Of a stretch of 64,000 nt of DNA, positions 4,074 to 32,816 are shown in pieces. Both the position numbers and the translations under genes were made by a program. The stretch's first letter is position 1, and the number at the start of each line of letters is the position of its first letter. The DNA lies in NCBI RefSeq assembly GCF_037975245.1, contig NC_092571.1, forward strand, positions 23,813,564 to 23,877,563, read 5' to 3'. The notes under the pieces were generated by a model, which worked only from the letters and a program-made list of their open reading frames with translations, was not told where the DNA came from and did no database searches. This stretch comes from Apostichopus japonicus (lineage: Eukaryota > Echinodermata > Holothuroidea > Aspidochirotida > Stichopodidae).

Positions 4074-4254
4074 TTTTGGCTAAGATCATGAGTAGTATCT
4101 GTTCCCTTTCGAGGGGAATGGTGATGCACACCCGACGATGATCACACAGTCACAGTCCCGATGCAAGGGGACTGGGGTTGAGCGCGGATTAGTCGTTCGG
4201 TAGCTTGGTTTTCGTGCCCAGTTTCTTTCCTGGGTGACTTTTCCTAAAAAGTAC
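4074..4254 (+). mobile_element. U2 snRNA-headed SINE-like element, copy 1
   Basis: This is a plus-strand copy lacking about the first 12 bases. It begins in the U2 snRNA 5' region ('TTTTGGCTAAGATCATG', then 'GTAGTATCTGTTC') and leaves U2 for an unrelated body. The body contains the inverted pair CCCTTTCGAGGGG and the hairpin words GTCCCGATGCAAGGGGAC, and ends 'CTGGGTGACTTTTCCTAAAAAGTA'-like. The same head and body recur at 25909, 27815 and 32256, so it is a family and not a U2 gene. The Sm site and the 3' half of U2 are absent. Confidence 0.75.
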
Positions 4255-5429
4255 CTCTCATTGCCTTTCGGGAAACATCTCATACTCTAGTTATTGATCT
4301 CTCCAAGTTTCCAAAATTGTTGTTTAATTTGTGTAATTTTTATCTTATCCGCCGCAGTTTCTTAAATATATTTCCGCCATATCACTCCATGTTTTTTTTC
4401 TCTCTTATCAGTCCTAGTTGAAACTCTCAAGGACCGGAGATGAGATACTGAAAGGGACAGCGCGATCACTAGACAAAGTTTAAGAGAGCACGAACTGATG
4501 ACTAATTATTATAGAAATTCATTTTAATCGAACGATAACAGCGTTTGACAACAGCAGAGTACACAACAACGTAAACTTGGATGAAATCTTACATAAAATC
4601 AACACATAATGCAAGAGAATATAGTGAAAACTAAACCGTTTCATTTAGTTAGTTTGCTGTAATACCTAGTGGAGTTTGGATTTGTTATGACTGGATTATG
4701 AAGCACTTCAGACTATATAATGCGTTTCCCATGGCAACGGAAAGTAAATCGAGCCTGAAGTGTGTGGAGCGTACTTTGCCCTCGTTCAATACTGTTTATG
4801 GGTGGGTTGTGAAAGTTTAACCGTGCTTTCGCGGTATGCAGTATTGCTGATTCCCTACGTTTTTTTCAGAGACATCTCTATGTAATACAGCTCTGGTATG
4901 TAGTAAGCATGGTGGTAATGTGCATATAGCCTACGTACATACAGTATAAGTATACGCTTTGAAAGCAGAGGAAGTCCTTTCGGTCTGGGTGGAAGTCTCC
5001 AACATTCAGTTGCAAAGAAAGAGGTACTGTATGATAATAATAGGCCTTTGCTAGATACCCTTAACAGCCCATACCTTTTGTTATATAGGTTATTCGTATC
5101 AGGGCCGCAACAAGATTGATTTTACAGGGATGCAGTAAGATGTTAAGCCGTCCGAGGGTCGACTGTTAACGTATAAGACATTTAATCAACGGTATGTAAC
5201 CGTTGAAATGGCACTTCCCCGGCCTTGTAAGATGCAACCAAACATTCTTTGATATGAAATCTCAAGTCTTAAGAATTTACACTTCCGAAGAAGGGTAAAT
5301 TAGAAATATTTTATTGATTCGTTAAAGTCACTTTGTAGGGGATAATATGAATTAACGTTTCTTTATATAAGCTCTGCTTTATTCATTGTTTTACATACGT
5401 AATTAAAGATGTAAAGCATGCTCGGATAC

Positions 5430-24100: not shown

Positions 24101-27100
24101 CTTCAGTCGAAATTTATGTCAAAGCACCCCTGATTGTCTTCAAACTTCGAAGGAAGGTGCCCGAGATGGGAACTTGTGATGAGAAAACACTCCGAACGAA
24201 AGGTCAATAGGTCAAATTAATCAAAGAATAGTATCACAATATGTTCTTACCATGGTAACTGAAGTCAACGAAATGTTAAATAATGATGTCGAGTGAAGAA
24301 AATGTGATCTTGGGCCTATAACGGCAAGGGGTAACATTTAATTACGACTTCACAGCTGTAATGGGTATTCCAAGTACCATACAAACTATTATATACGTAT
24401 CATGGTAACTGATGTCAAAGGTCAAATGTAATAATGTGATTATAAATGTAAAGGTCTCCTTAACCAGTCGACCAATAACCTCCTAATTGGATAGGAAGGT
24501 CTTGAAAACCTTCGGAATGAAGGTCAGATGTCAAAGGTCGAATGAAGCAAAACAGTGACTTTTTGCTCTGAATACAAAGTCAAACATTGGATAAAGTTGC
24601 AACCTGCACAAGTTAAGTATTATCAAAGTACATAATTACCATGGCGACTGAGGTCAAAGCTCAAGGTGTAAAAGGAGTGTATGAATTATGGTTGTGGCAA
24701 TTTTGTAGGCCATTCATAATCATTTGTTCAGTGAATGCTTTTTGCGATGAGATATATACGCAACTCCGTAGATTCCTCTATTATTTCATGTTGGAATAAT
24801 TTGAGTTGTTATGTCTAAATTCATTGTTCCTGTTACGATTTCGATGTCATTATTTTTCATTGACCAGTTTTTTATTTCCCTTTAAAGGATTGGTACGATA
24901 CCCACAAAGCGAAAGGATTCAATACAATATCGATACGAATTTAAACTTGACCCCAGCTGCGAATGACCCTAACTGACCTAGTAGAGCATCCGTCACTTCC
25001 GGGTCAATAGCATTGAAGTCATCAAGTTTCCAGACATACTCTGCGTTTAGATCAGCGGAGATTCTAGCCTCTAGCCATTCATCCGTCAAGTTTCTACCAT
25101 CTTGTCTAGAACCGGTTGCATCCGGGTATTCTGGGTCGGCTGACGTCACTGGAATGAAGTTTCTTCTTCCTCCACCCATCGCCACCTGATGGTCAATAAC
25201 AAAGTAACCAAAGAAATAATAAGTAAGAAAAAAACACTGAAGAGTAAAAGAAGTGTAATTGTTGTAAGGCGCGCACACGTAAGAATTAGCGCACACGTAA
25301 GCGCGTAAGCGCGCACGTATATAAGTGCGCACACTTAAGCATTACTAGAAATACATATAGTAAGTTATTGCATTCGATTGATGTAACATGGCATATTGCT
25401 GATACCTTTAATCCTGGATCGTTTACCTGAAGTAGGTGAATGAGGGCGCAATGCTAAAATGATACCAAATTTTGTAAGCTAGGTTGTTAACAGTGCTATG
25501 TAGAATGGAGAGGGTAAGAAAGTACCTTTAATCCCAAATCGAAGTCGATCAGTTGAGCAGCGATGTCAATGCAGCCGTTTTCTTTGGCCTCGTCGGGAAG
25601 ATTTACGTCACTTTCCCAATTTCTGCTAGCGGAATGAGCATAGCCTGCTGCCGGAGTAGCGTGAGTTAACCTTGTCGTAGTCACAATACCGGTTGATTTG
25701 CCTATCATGGTAACCCAAATAACGGATAAATGCTTTTTTTCATTTTCATATATGTTCTCTCCTTGGTGATTTGTAGTTAATTAATATTAAAAGTGATCAT
25801 AAATTAAGAAAGGTGCATTAGTTGTTTAGTGTACCAAATCGTCAGTCAAAGCCTTGCTCCGTCTGTGCCATTGTATGTGAATAATGTGAACGATTATCAA
25901 TTTGAAGATACTTTTTTAAGGAAAAGTTGCCCAGGAAAGAACCTGGGCACGAAAACCAAACTACCAAACGACTGATCCGCTCTCAGCCCCAATCCCCTTG
26001 CATCGGGACTGTGACTGTGTGATCATCGTCAGGTGTGCATCACCATTCCCCTCGAAAGGGAACAGATATTACACATGATCTTAGCCAAAAGGCCGAGAAG
26101 CGATTACCAATTTGAATATGTTACGTGAAACTAGCGTCTGTGTTCTTGCCAGGAAGGGTAGAGCTTTGGTTAAACATAGCTAATACAAGTAGAACGACGT
26201 TTGATATCTTCTAATAGCTGGTTATTTCTTTCGCTATGAACGGGAACATGTTCTTTCAATTTGAAACGGTGCTATTGACTACATGAAAGGAGTACTAAGG
26301 AAGAGGAAGTAGGGGTCACCTGGAAGTAGGTCAATAGAGGGGGAATTCTGAAAACGTTACCAATTTGGGTAAATTAAACTTCATTTGTCGTATGGAAACA
26401 GTTAAGAGAGGAGTGACGTAACTAACCAATAACCCCAGATAACCTTAATAACTCTAATAACAAATAACCTTACATACGTAAGTTGACGATGACAAGTGGT
26501 GAGATGTGAAATATGGCTATGAAAACTGGCAGCTACTGTATATAACAGAGAGATTCATTTGTTTATTCTGGGGTCAGGGAGTGGGATAGGCTCATCACTG
26601 GTCTCATGCTCCAGTGCCATAATACAACAGACATACAGACAGATAGATAGACAGACAGATAGACAAACTGTTAAGAAGTGGCAGCAGACCATTTTAATAA
26701 TAATACGTAATACTTATATAGCACCTCCCAGAAATCATGAAGCGCTGTACAATAAAAAATAAGTAAAAAGGAGCATAAACAGTTAAACCAGGTTAAGAAG
26801 TATAATGACAGTTTAAAAACAGCTAAAAAGGTACGTCTTCAAATCTGTCTTATAAAAAGGTTAAGATTAGGTGTTCTACGGATGTTTGTTTTGCATTTCT
26901 GTTAACTAAGTTTTCCTCACATCACTTTGTCTTTATTTATTCTCATCTCGTTTCATGTGCACTTTTGATAAGTTAGTATACCTTTACCATCCCAACTACT
27001 TAGTTTTACTCAAATGCCGCCCTCCTTATAATAAAACTTACCCGCTGTGATTGCGTCATCCAAAATAGTGGAGAGTTTCTCCGCTGTTGCTTCGGAAGAG

Positions 27101-29636
27101 CAGTCAGATGGTATGATATTGTCATCGTATCCGAGAACGCCAAGTTTAGTTTTAACTCCGGAAAGAAATGCTGTCGCTGTACCGGCAGAGTCGGCAACTT
27201 GAGAGTTCGTGTTATAGGTCTTATAAAGAAAACGAAAACAAAATAAATGTAAATTTCTCTCATAAATGGCACGAATCAGTCTTGATCATTGTACATTTAT
27301 TTTAATCTTCATGTGAGATTGGAACACATTTTTCGATATGGCTTATACTCCAAAAACAACTTATGAAAGGCAATTTTTTTATGTTTTTATTTATTTAATT
27401 GACGTGATCAACATGGTTATTTTGATTAGTACGAATACTGTCTTTGCTTCGAATATTGTAATTCATTTTTTTTTGTATAGAACTGATTAGCAGGACTACA
27501 ATGATTCAATTGATTAGTAAACATTAGTATAATTATTAATTGTATAATTCATAGTATTGTTTCATTATTATTTTGATATGTTCATTTTGCATGTGATTGT
27601 ATAAATACCTACACGTATAGGAACTATGACAGAGAGATTCGCACCCACCCCAACCCACCCCACCCCCACCTGCACCCCACTTAAAAAAGTGTTAAACAGA
27701 ATATTTCTTCTCCTCGTTTGATTTTTCCTTCAAATGTCAACAGAAAATCGTAGGTTATGATATCACATGCCAACATATCGATGCAACACAAATTTATACA
27801 TTTTAGACAAGGTACTTTTTAAGAAAAGTCACCCAGGAAAGAACCTGGGCACGAAAAACCAAACAACCGAACGACTGATCCGCTCTCAACGCCAGTCCCC
27901 TTGCATCGGGACTGCGACTGTGTGATCATCGTCGGGTGTATATCACCATTCCCCTCGAAAGGGAACAGATACTACACATGATCTTAGCCAAAAGGCCGAA
28001 AAGCAAGGTAGCAATTCGGAGATAAACATAATGACATTTTTTATGTCCCATATGGTCCACAGTAGCATCTACAAAATATAGATTTATGTCGGGGGGATTA
28101 CCACCATGGTGGTAAAAATATTATATTTGTTGTATTTATTGCGATTAGCTGGCTATATATGCACATTATGGTTAACATATTAACATGAATATGCATAAAT
28201 TTAAGTACCAGTGTGAGTACCATGAATAATAGGATTAACACCTGTTGTTTTGATTATCATAAGTTATGCACTCTTTGTGTTGAATATGATTAATATAGAT
28301 AGTATGATCATATGATAATTAACATATATCTAATTATTAGGTATCTTTGCAATGGATGGAGAGAATATTATAAGTGATTATGATGTTAAATTTTGTTTTA
28401 AAGAACATTAAATCTGTAATATTTCCCGTATGGAATAATGTTTTTTCTTAGCTGTTTGGACAATCTGTTCCTTATACACCACAATTATCACCATCTCATA
28501 TACCAATACTGGTGATTGAGTGTGTGTCTCCTACAGTGGCGTGTGCAAAGGGGCGGGGCAGGAGGCATGCCCTACCCTCGTCGATCGGGGAATTGTTTAA
28601 TCGGGTGATTTTTTGTTTGTTTTTAGAGTATTAATTATCACAATATTGCATTTGTACCTAATTACAGTCCTAATTTATAGTCTAAATATTCTTCAGAATG
28701 CATGATATTTTTCTGTGGTAGCTGACTACCTGCAAAACCCTACATGGAAGTCGGCTTTAACTACCCCAAGACCACACCATTCCTTTAACAAATTCTTTAT
28801 TCGCCTCTGACCCCTTCAATATCGGTTCAACCGTTACCAAAATCAGTCGGAATTAGACTTTGCCGCCCTGGACACCTCATTTACCCCCCCCCCCCCCCTC
28901 ATTTACCCCTTGAAATCCTCAGTGCACGCCACTGGTCTTCTATATATACTGTGTTTAAAAATTCTTTAACAAACCTTTGAGAGGGCGACGTGCGGGAATG
29001 TCTCCCACATCAGACAGCCTTCTTCGCCAGTTTTCCCAACAAGTTGTCCTTTGTATATTCTACTGGCAGTGGATGTATGGATATCGAGACCGTCACCCAA
29101 AAATAAAATTACATTTTTCGCTTTGTTTTCGTTCAAATTATTATTCAAGGCGTTATTCAGTGCAATTTTCCCCAGGTTCCTCCAGTGCTCTGCTGGCTGG
29201 GTAAGTACAACTACAAAAAGAAAGAATACATTTTAGAATCTCAGTATCAGAAATTCCTTTGTTCCTTTGTTTTAGCTTAATTAGATCAGTGGAAAAGTGT
29301 GTTAAATTTGTATAAAAGGTTTTAAATTATAGTCGACGGCGAGATCAAATTGATCTAAACTTAGGTTCCGAATTTTGCCAATGACATGTGACTAGCTAAT
29401 AAACGCGTCACGGTATAGTGTTACAATAAAAGCATTTTATGTTTGTGCAAAACTGTAGGAACGTCTTTTGAATTTTTTTTGTTTAAACAGTAAAAAAAAA
29501 TATTTGGAAGGTTTTCAGAATATTGTCATGTAATTTTTTTCTAAAAATTTTCAATTTTTTTGAAAATAATAATAATAATAACAAAGAAAGAGGGAGGGTT
29601 GGGGGATATCGATGATCTTTAAAGAATGATTTCATA

Positions 29637-31730: not shown

Positions 31731-32255
31731 AGGCCTACTTACTTTTACACATTTTTTTTTAAAGAAAAATATCCATGAAGTTCTAGGCAAACAGTTTTCT
31801 CACAAAAAGACCGATGACGTAAGATGTAAGACATCAAGAAATTACGAGATTAATACAAAAGAAATTCCATATTATTGAATATTAGTTACCAAAACACCGA
31901 CTCCTCACATGTTGTGACAAATGCACTTAAATATCTGTAACATTCCATCCCATCCAAAATAAAGAAAGGTGTGGTAATAAAATTCCCTAGTTTGCTATGC
32001 TGTTTCAACTTATCCCTCTATTTATTGTTGTATAACACTACATGCATAAAGAAATGGAATCACGGCAAAAAGTCCCAAGAATCCAGCTTGTGAAATTACG
32101 GGATGTATCTCCAGGTAGCGTTCGATAGAGGTCACGGAATACGAACCTGGGGATAGGGGCGGGGGCGGGGGCAGTGTTATGCTTATTAGAAAAGTGTCAG
32201 TGGAAAAGTTGACGTTGATTTCTCGTAAATTTATTATCCCACCTAAATTTAAGGG

Positions 32256-32449
32256 ATACTTTTTAAGAAAAGTCATCCAGGAAAGAACCTGGGCTCGAAA
32301 ACCAAACTACCGAACGGCTGATCCGCTCTCAACCCCAGTCCCCTTGCATCGAGACTGTGACTGTGTGATCATCGTCGGGTGTGTATCACCATTCCCCTCG
32401 AAAGGGAACAAATACCACACATGATCTTAGCCAAAGGCCGAGAAGCGAT
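32256..32449 (-). mobile_element. U2 snRNA-headed SINE-like element, copy 4
   Basis: Minus-strand copy with head ATCGCTTCTCGGCCTTTGGC, body with GATGATCACACAGTCACAGT, and end CTTAAAAAGTATCC. Nearly identical to copies 2 and 3. Confidence 0.85.
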
Positions 32450-32463
32450 CAACAGACTGACTA

Positions 32464-32502
32464 ACAGATACTACAAATGATCTTAGCCAAAAGGCCGAGA
32501 AG
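32464..32502 (-). mobile_element. isolated U2 head fragment beside copy 4
   Basis: GCTTCTCGGCCTTTTGGCTA then AGATCATTTGTAGTATCTGT on the minus strand: the U2-like head alone, 14 bp from the head of copy 4 and in the same orientation. Confidence 0.75.
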
Positions 32503-32816
32503 CTACCTCCGCGGATCTAGGATTTCGCGGAAGTGGTGGCCCCCAAAACAAGTATCGTTAGATAAACGAATGCAATCAATTTTTGCAATCGCGTTGAAAA
32601 TCGTATTACTTTTTAGCGGGTGGGGGTAAAGCAGGGGCAGTGGATATCATAGTGTTGCCCCTGATTTCTATTTTGGGAAAGGTTTTTACTCAGTTTAGAG
32701 ACACTATACTTGTCATTTCCTGTTATCTTCGTTTTATTAAAACTGGAATATTGGTCATACTTGAATACTTTCGTTCATCGATTTAGCGATTACTGTGAAG
32801 CCAATTCAAACAGACG

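Follow-up and report, generated by a model that had tools for sequence, protein, structure and literature searches.

A U2-headed SINE of the sea cucumber Apostichopus japonicus and its probable residence in the U2 snRNA genes

How could a SINE be transcribed when its head is a pol II-type snRNA? The question is raised by a repeat of ~192 nt, starting with nt 1-45 of U2 snRNA, of which four copies lie within the window, by which we mean the whole stretch of 64,000 nucleotides that was analysed (G000:C11:23813564-23877563 of Apostichopus japonicus; the genome searched comprises 671,581,487 bp on 35 contigs). An earlier note on this DNA had proposed an invertebrate family of retroposed elements, in which a U2 head is fused to an unrelated body, and had counted four near-full copies. 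The host is indeed an invertebrate and all four copies are present; the one at 4074 starts at U2 nt 15 and the one at 27809 at nt 4. The copy on which the note centred, hereafter copy 1, lies where it had been placed, but on the minus strand. The features are as follows.

25905-26104, minus strand: copy 1, the BLAST reference for the other three copies
26060..26104, minus strand: head of copy 1, U2 snRNA nt 1-45, with one mismatch to the host U2 genes
25912..26059, minus strand: SINE body and A-run of copy 1, from alignment to the other window copies and to the U2-gene insertions
25907..25911, minus strand: GTATC 3' of the A-run of copy 1, equal to U2 nt 36-40; the reconstructed target has ACATA instead
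26101..26116, minus strand: 5' target site duplication of copy 1, TTCAAATTGGTAATCG, the final 4 nt of which are the first 4 of the head
25891..25906, minus strand: 3' target site duplication of copy 1, TTCAAATTGATAATCG, with 1 mismatch
27809..28004, minus strand: second copy, from U2 nt 4, with a weak 7-bp target site duplication (TACCTTG)
32255..32449, minus strand: third copy, with a complete head and no convincing target site duplication
32463..32503, minus strand: extra partial U2 head, nt 4-44, which precedes the third copy
4074..4256, plus strand: fourth copy, 5'-truncated, which begins at U2 nt 15

The three other copies match copy 1 with BLAST E <= 3e-71. In the consensus, the head agrees at every position with nt 1-45 of the U2 genes of the same host, including AUCAUGUGU where the Rfam U2 consensus reads AUCAAGUGU, and copy 1 departs from the host genes by a single A for G at U2 nt 36, so that the head had rightly been called identical or nearly so to U2. 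The flanking repeats of ~18 bp reported for copy 1 come close to what we find, a 16-bp duplication with one mismatch. Its end had been described as short and A-rich, and an A-run is there, but it is followed by GTATC.

The Rfam gathering score for U2 (46) is attained twice in the window, at 26028-26104 (49.3 bits) and 32401-32506 (46.0 bits), which means that SINE copies, at two places among the four copies of the window, can be mistaken for U2 genes. When Rfam was searched at a relaxed E-value the head was recognized as U2, the body had no credible match and three more matches had E 5.5 or worse. Extra partial U2 heads ahead of complete ones occur in the window (32463-32503) and at loci L002 and L077; template jumps are perhaps their source, and they resemble the heads that are said to have been added repeatedly in SINEU, a family of crocodilian SINEs.

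The dispersed family and its ends

The 24-nt joint between U2 and body has 542 exact matches in the genome (269 forward, 273 reverse), against 0 for the reversed pattern used as control. A search with 228 nt returned 2648 first-look candidates, 40 of which were scored, and the true number of copies is probably in the low thousands.

We studied the ends of the element in 91 pooled copies with 3' ends, which come from the window, from the best-match loci and from 40 exact-joint places. Alignments stopping before consensus nt 186 or too close to the end of a locus were excluded, and neighbouring and segmentally duplicated copies (L085/L086) were counted as two. Loci L002-L040 are the best matches to one copy and hence biased towards it; loci L081-L120 are exact-joint places (20 of the 26 listed for C1, and 20 on C4, in order and skipping L018), drawn from the first 100 of the 542 and biased towards the intact joint of the bulk of dispersed copies.

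Retroposition had been made to depend, in the earlier note, on target site duplications (TSDs) genome-wide. Measured against a null in which the flanks of different copies were paired (swapped-flank), TSDs lie above 95% of the null in 63 of the 91 copies, the other 28 remaining below, and above 99% in 34, where they are 10-24 nt long, which bears the claim out; in the exact-joint sample by itself the same thresholds are passed by 30 and 16 of 39 copies. The element is also short (~192 nt), non-coding, dispersed and present in many copies, which, together with TSDs of variable length, are general traits of SINEs. At the 5' side, 68 of the 91 copies start at U2 nt 1-7, including 31 that start at nt 1, the others being truncated. 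Both U2 upstream regions were compared with the sequence in front of dispersed copies, and 0 of the 91 flanks scored above the shuffle maximum.

The 3' side carries a trace of U2 as well. After the A-run we find GT in 76 of the 91 copies and GTA in 68, a minority of dispersed copies having instead a longer A-run and no GTA. Target and template can be told apart when the TSD starts at least 2 nt later, and among the 19 confident copies of this kind the GT is missing from the reconstructed target in 14. The GT(A) or GTATC after the A-run thus fits a template that runs from the SINE into U2 nt 36-40. In the target itself, the third position after the A-run is an A in 88% of 34 copies, an indication of short pairing between the target and this RNA, although the way in which TSDs are aligned partly favours that A. 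Taken by their ends, the dispersed copies look like misplaced copies of a transcript composed of U2 nt 1-45 and the body.

Dispersed copies also occur in head-to-tail runs, at L011, L015, L017, L024 and L038. Their spacers, of ~5-30 nt, partly resemble the target duplications of the copies, as if one site had been hit repeatedly.

Insertions in the U2 genes and LINEs at the same site

At least 46 U2 genes are present, 42 of them in C16:31,015,207-31,155,899 and 4 on C15; the figure is a minimum because no more than 46 candidates were scored. The unit of the C16 array is 645 bp long, and a unit that holds the SINE is 798 bp, that is, 645 + 153. A genome search for the SINE tail CTTAAAAA running directly into U2 from nt 36, which permitted 1 mismatch and needed none, gave 7 places, of which 6 lie in the C16 array and 1 on C20. 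The order in the array is U2 upstream region, U2 nt 1-45, the ~145-nt body, A5 and U2 nt 36-193, so six C16 U2 genes are interrupted by the body at nt 35/36. The idea of a U2 piece that was fused to the body as the head of a SINE is not supported by this observation: since six U2 genes hold the body at this position, the simplest reading of the head is as host gene interrupted by the element.

These six genes contain seven SINE copies, which do not all have the same 5' end. In four, which are full-length, GTATCTGTTC stands on both sides (with a mismatch in one), so that U2 nt 36-45 are repeated; an upstream joint guided by the U2 part of the RNA would be expected to look like this. One is 5'-truncated and has an 18-bp U2 duplication, GTATCTGTTCTTTTCAGC; another, bordered on either side by this 18-bp stretch, is truncated behind the 3' end of a LINE that was in the gene before it; and the last is truncated ahead of one of the four full-length copies, in a doubly occupied gene (L072). 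Truncated insertions with an 18-bp U2 duplication are the mark of targeted retroposition, and varied 5' ends at one fixed 3' boundary argue for target-primed reverse transcription at a single nick and would not result from gene conversion.

The same array holds LINEs. Three of them, A (L078), B (L080) and C (L124), have a stop-free ORF2 of 1157, 1153 and 1162 codons; C and B are 51% identical over 1132 aa of ORF2, and A is 36-37% identical to both. LINEs A and B carry the domains Exo_endo_phos and RVT_1, with CCHC in ORF1, and C, to judge by its 51% identity to B, is probably Keno-type like them in endonuclease and reverse transcriptase. LINEs B and C end in ...GAAAGAAA(A), followed by GTATCTG of U2, while in LINE A the gene resumes two nt further, at ATCTG; the 3' boundary within U2 is therefore common to the array SINE insertions and to LINEs B and C. 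LINE C is flanked by a 15-bp U2 duplication.

Passages of PMC4640811 attribute to the LINEs Keno and Utopia one common 3' flanking U2 sequence, to off-target Utopia copies junctions such as TGTAGTATCTG, and to Keno, not to Utopia, an endonuclease of the apurinic type. LINEs A-C are inserted at this common site, their junctions adjoining those quoted there, and the Exo_endo_phos endonuclease of A and B is of the type reported for Keno, unlike Utopia. The target is thus of the same kind for the SINE and for Keno and Utopia, but these are autonomous LINEs and the SINE encodes nothing.

Three LINEs with uninterrupted frames and only 36-51% ORF2 identity share the U2 site in one array (C16:31.01-31.16 Mb). 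In the region of the array there is also L079 (C16:31040850-31046450), a LINE with a stop-free ORF2 of 961 codons and a poly-A end, which interrupts no U2 gene at the usual site.

Proposed transcription and spread of the SINE

A scan of the consensus, accompanied by simple shuffles, found one A-box-like stretch and internal T4 runs, which are expected to stop pol III, and found neither a B box nor an Sm site; the internal pol III promoter that a tRNA, 7SL or 5S head would provide is not seen in it. With the B box absent and the T4 runs present, the usual transcription of SINEs is unlikely, and we infer from the sequence that transcription would start at the U2 promoter.

We consider it likely that a SINE of ~145 nt resides in the U2 genes, is read from the U2 promoter and is moved by LINEs that target U2. 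Keno-type LINEs, which share its site and its array, would make a nick between nt 35 and 36 of the U2 gene and reverse-transcribe SINE RNA at the nicked site. Once inserted behind the U2 promoter, the SINE would give a chimeric RNA made of U2 nt 1-45, the SINE and U2 nt 36 onward. If this RNA were used at a further U2 gene, the U2 stretch in its cDNA would restore a seamless upstream joint; if it were inserted off target, it would leave a dispersed copy that begins around the U2 start and has a few U2 nucleotides after the A-run. Such dispersed copies, being promoterless, would be dead on arrival. We infer the use of LINE proteins, the part that homology plays in the upstream joint and the order in which all this takes place.

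Some dispersed loci touch on the chimeric RNA. L121 and L123, encountered among the listed and the sampled places of the exact-joint search, each have a tail-GTATCTGTTC-body joint, as in the doubly occupied gene L072. This could be what a doubly occupied U2 gene would transcribe, and a later SINE insertion at the U2 site in a dispersed head could give the same. At L121 the joint heads a tandem run, the remaining units being joined via U2 nt 24-45.

The tandem units of L121 (C3:3634300-3636500) are ~171 bp long and consist of body, tail and U2 nt 24-45; they form a SINE-derived mini-satellite. At the C20 locus a bulk-like body occurs together with U2 nt 36-193, and the likeness of the upstream flank to that of the array is not significant (p 0.2). 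Given this flank the locus could be the relic of a gene or else a retrocopy, and we did not retain it as proof of a retroposed chimeric transcript.

The array copies and the bulk of the family differ at the joint, where GTTC is followed by CCYTNGGGAATGG in the former and by CCTTTCGAGGGG in the latter, so the array copies of today are not the direct parents of the bulk. These parents may have been lost through array turnover, or the bulk may be of other origin. In a conventional history, of the SINEU kind, head and body would have been fused once and the composite, equipped with its own promoter, would spread from dispersed copies; those in U2 genes would be head-guided secondary insertions or gene conversions. 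It would account for the 542 exact bulk joints, against just 6 array U2 genes found carrying the element, and for the bulk joint being missing among the array copies seen; U1- and U2-headed SINEs of crocodilians are reportedly a precedent. We nevertheless think it unlikely. Conversion would not produce the 18-bp U2 duplications on two truncated array insertions, the consensus has an A-box-like stretch only, no B box and internal T4 runs, and the GT(A) after the A-run, which equals U2 nt 36-38, would be unexplained unless the template entered U2 or the end was inherited.

One dispersed copy, L043, near C15:6478680 and ~1.2 kb from a C15 U2 gene, has an array-like joint. The other dispersed loci were picked because they resemble a bulk copy or contain the bulk joint exactly, so that L043 gives no frequency of array-type dispersed copies.

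Returning to residence in the U2 genes, the partner LINE has to be considered. A LINE with a 3' end matching that of the SINE, which the earlier note had proposed to look for, is not among the three LINE 3' ends compared (similarity not significant, p 0.74-0.93), and what turned up instead are LINEs that share the insertion site; the partner is therefore assigned by site only. The body might instead stem from a U2-targeting LINE by internal deletion, in the way that Drosophila R2 SIDEs stem from R2; in favour of this origin are the shared target site and the A-rich end, which like that of LINEs B and C stands immediately ahead of GTATCTG. We regard it as improbable all the same, because the SINE and LINE 3' ends of A-C are not significantly alike and because the best match of the body to LINEs A-C is of 33 nt at E 0.025, aside from a SINE copy in the stretch that holds B; there may, however, be more families of U2 LINEs than these. 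The earlier note had allowed for a body that was part of a longer element. The four LINE-bearing stretches lend no support to its being a piece of the U2 LINEs, their sole strong match being that SINE copy within L080.

Finally, it is most improbable that heads are added at insertion by a LINE reverse transcriptase that copies SINE RNA and jumps to U2 snRNA, because jumps would scatter the joints, instead of giving one identical joint at 542 places and a same-position joint inside U2 genes with U2 continuing beyond the insert, even if R2 jumps to U12 and tRNA are reported in PMC3414825 and extra partial heads precede complete ones at window 32463-32503, L002 and L077. Jumping can explain these extra heads, not the family.

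Relatives and significance

The closest known family is SINEU of crocodilians, which Kojima in 2015 reportedly described as having a 5' part from U1 or U2 snRNA. U1 and U2 pieces are said to have been added repeatedly at its 5' end, and a Tx1 LINE to have been proposed as its partner; Keno belongs to the Tx1 clade. To our knowledge, residence of SINEU inside U2 genes has not been reported. The sea cucumber SINE is likewise headed by U2 snRNA, its consensus nt 1-45 being those of the host U2, but its host is an echinoderm and the element lies inside the U2 genes. SINEU is also mentioned as snRNA-derived in a passage of PMC8010984.

The nearest functional parallel is that of the R2 SIDEs of Drosophila, non-autonomous elements which, according to PMC3414825, inhabit a multicopy RNA gene and depend for their movement on a site-specific LINE; R2 RNA itself derives from a 28S cotranscript. 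Both are short non-autonomous elements in a multicopy RNA gene with a site-specific LINE at hand. SIDEs, however, are internal deletions of R2 with a 5' ribozyme and have both ends from their autonomous partner, whereas the SINE body shows no convincing similarity to LINEs A-C; its dispersed copies, moreover, retain the upstream part of the gene.

Among the open-access papers listed in our searches there is no report of this SINE family in sea cucumbers, nor of a SINE resident in U2 genes. The annotation of Apostichopus japonicus, in the section of PMC10344927 concerned, gives 159,644 bp of SINEs (0.02% of the genome) and 996 splicing snRNAs. With so small a share of annotated SINEs, the U2-headed family is probably filed mostly as unknown repeats or partly among the 996 splicing snRNAs.

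Our results tie a SINE to U2-targeting LINEs in a single gene array, and make several stages visible together: targeted insertions, truncated insertions, a doubly occupied gene and off-target copies. They also offer an answer to the question of transcription in a SINE whose head is a pol II-type snRNA. On balance, although with less assurance than for the residence itself, we favour a broader reading, in which a promoterless SINE colonises the array of an essential snRNA gene, is expressed as a U2-initiated pol II RNA and seeds the genome off target. This route would explain snRNA-headed SINEs generally, the head being host gene and not part of the element.
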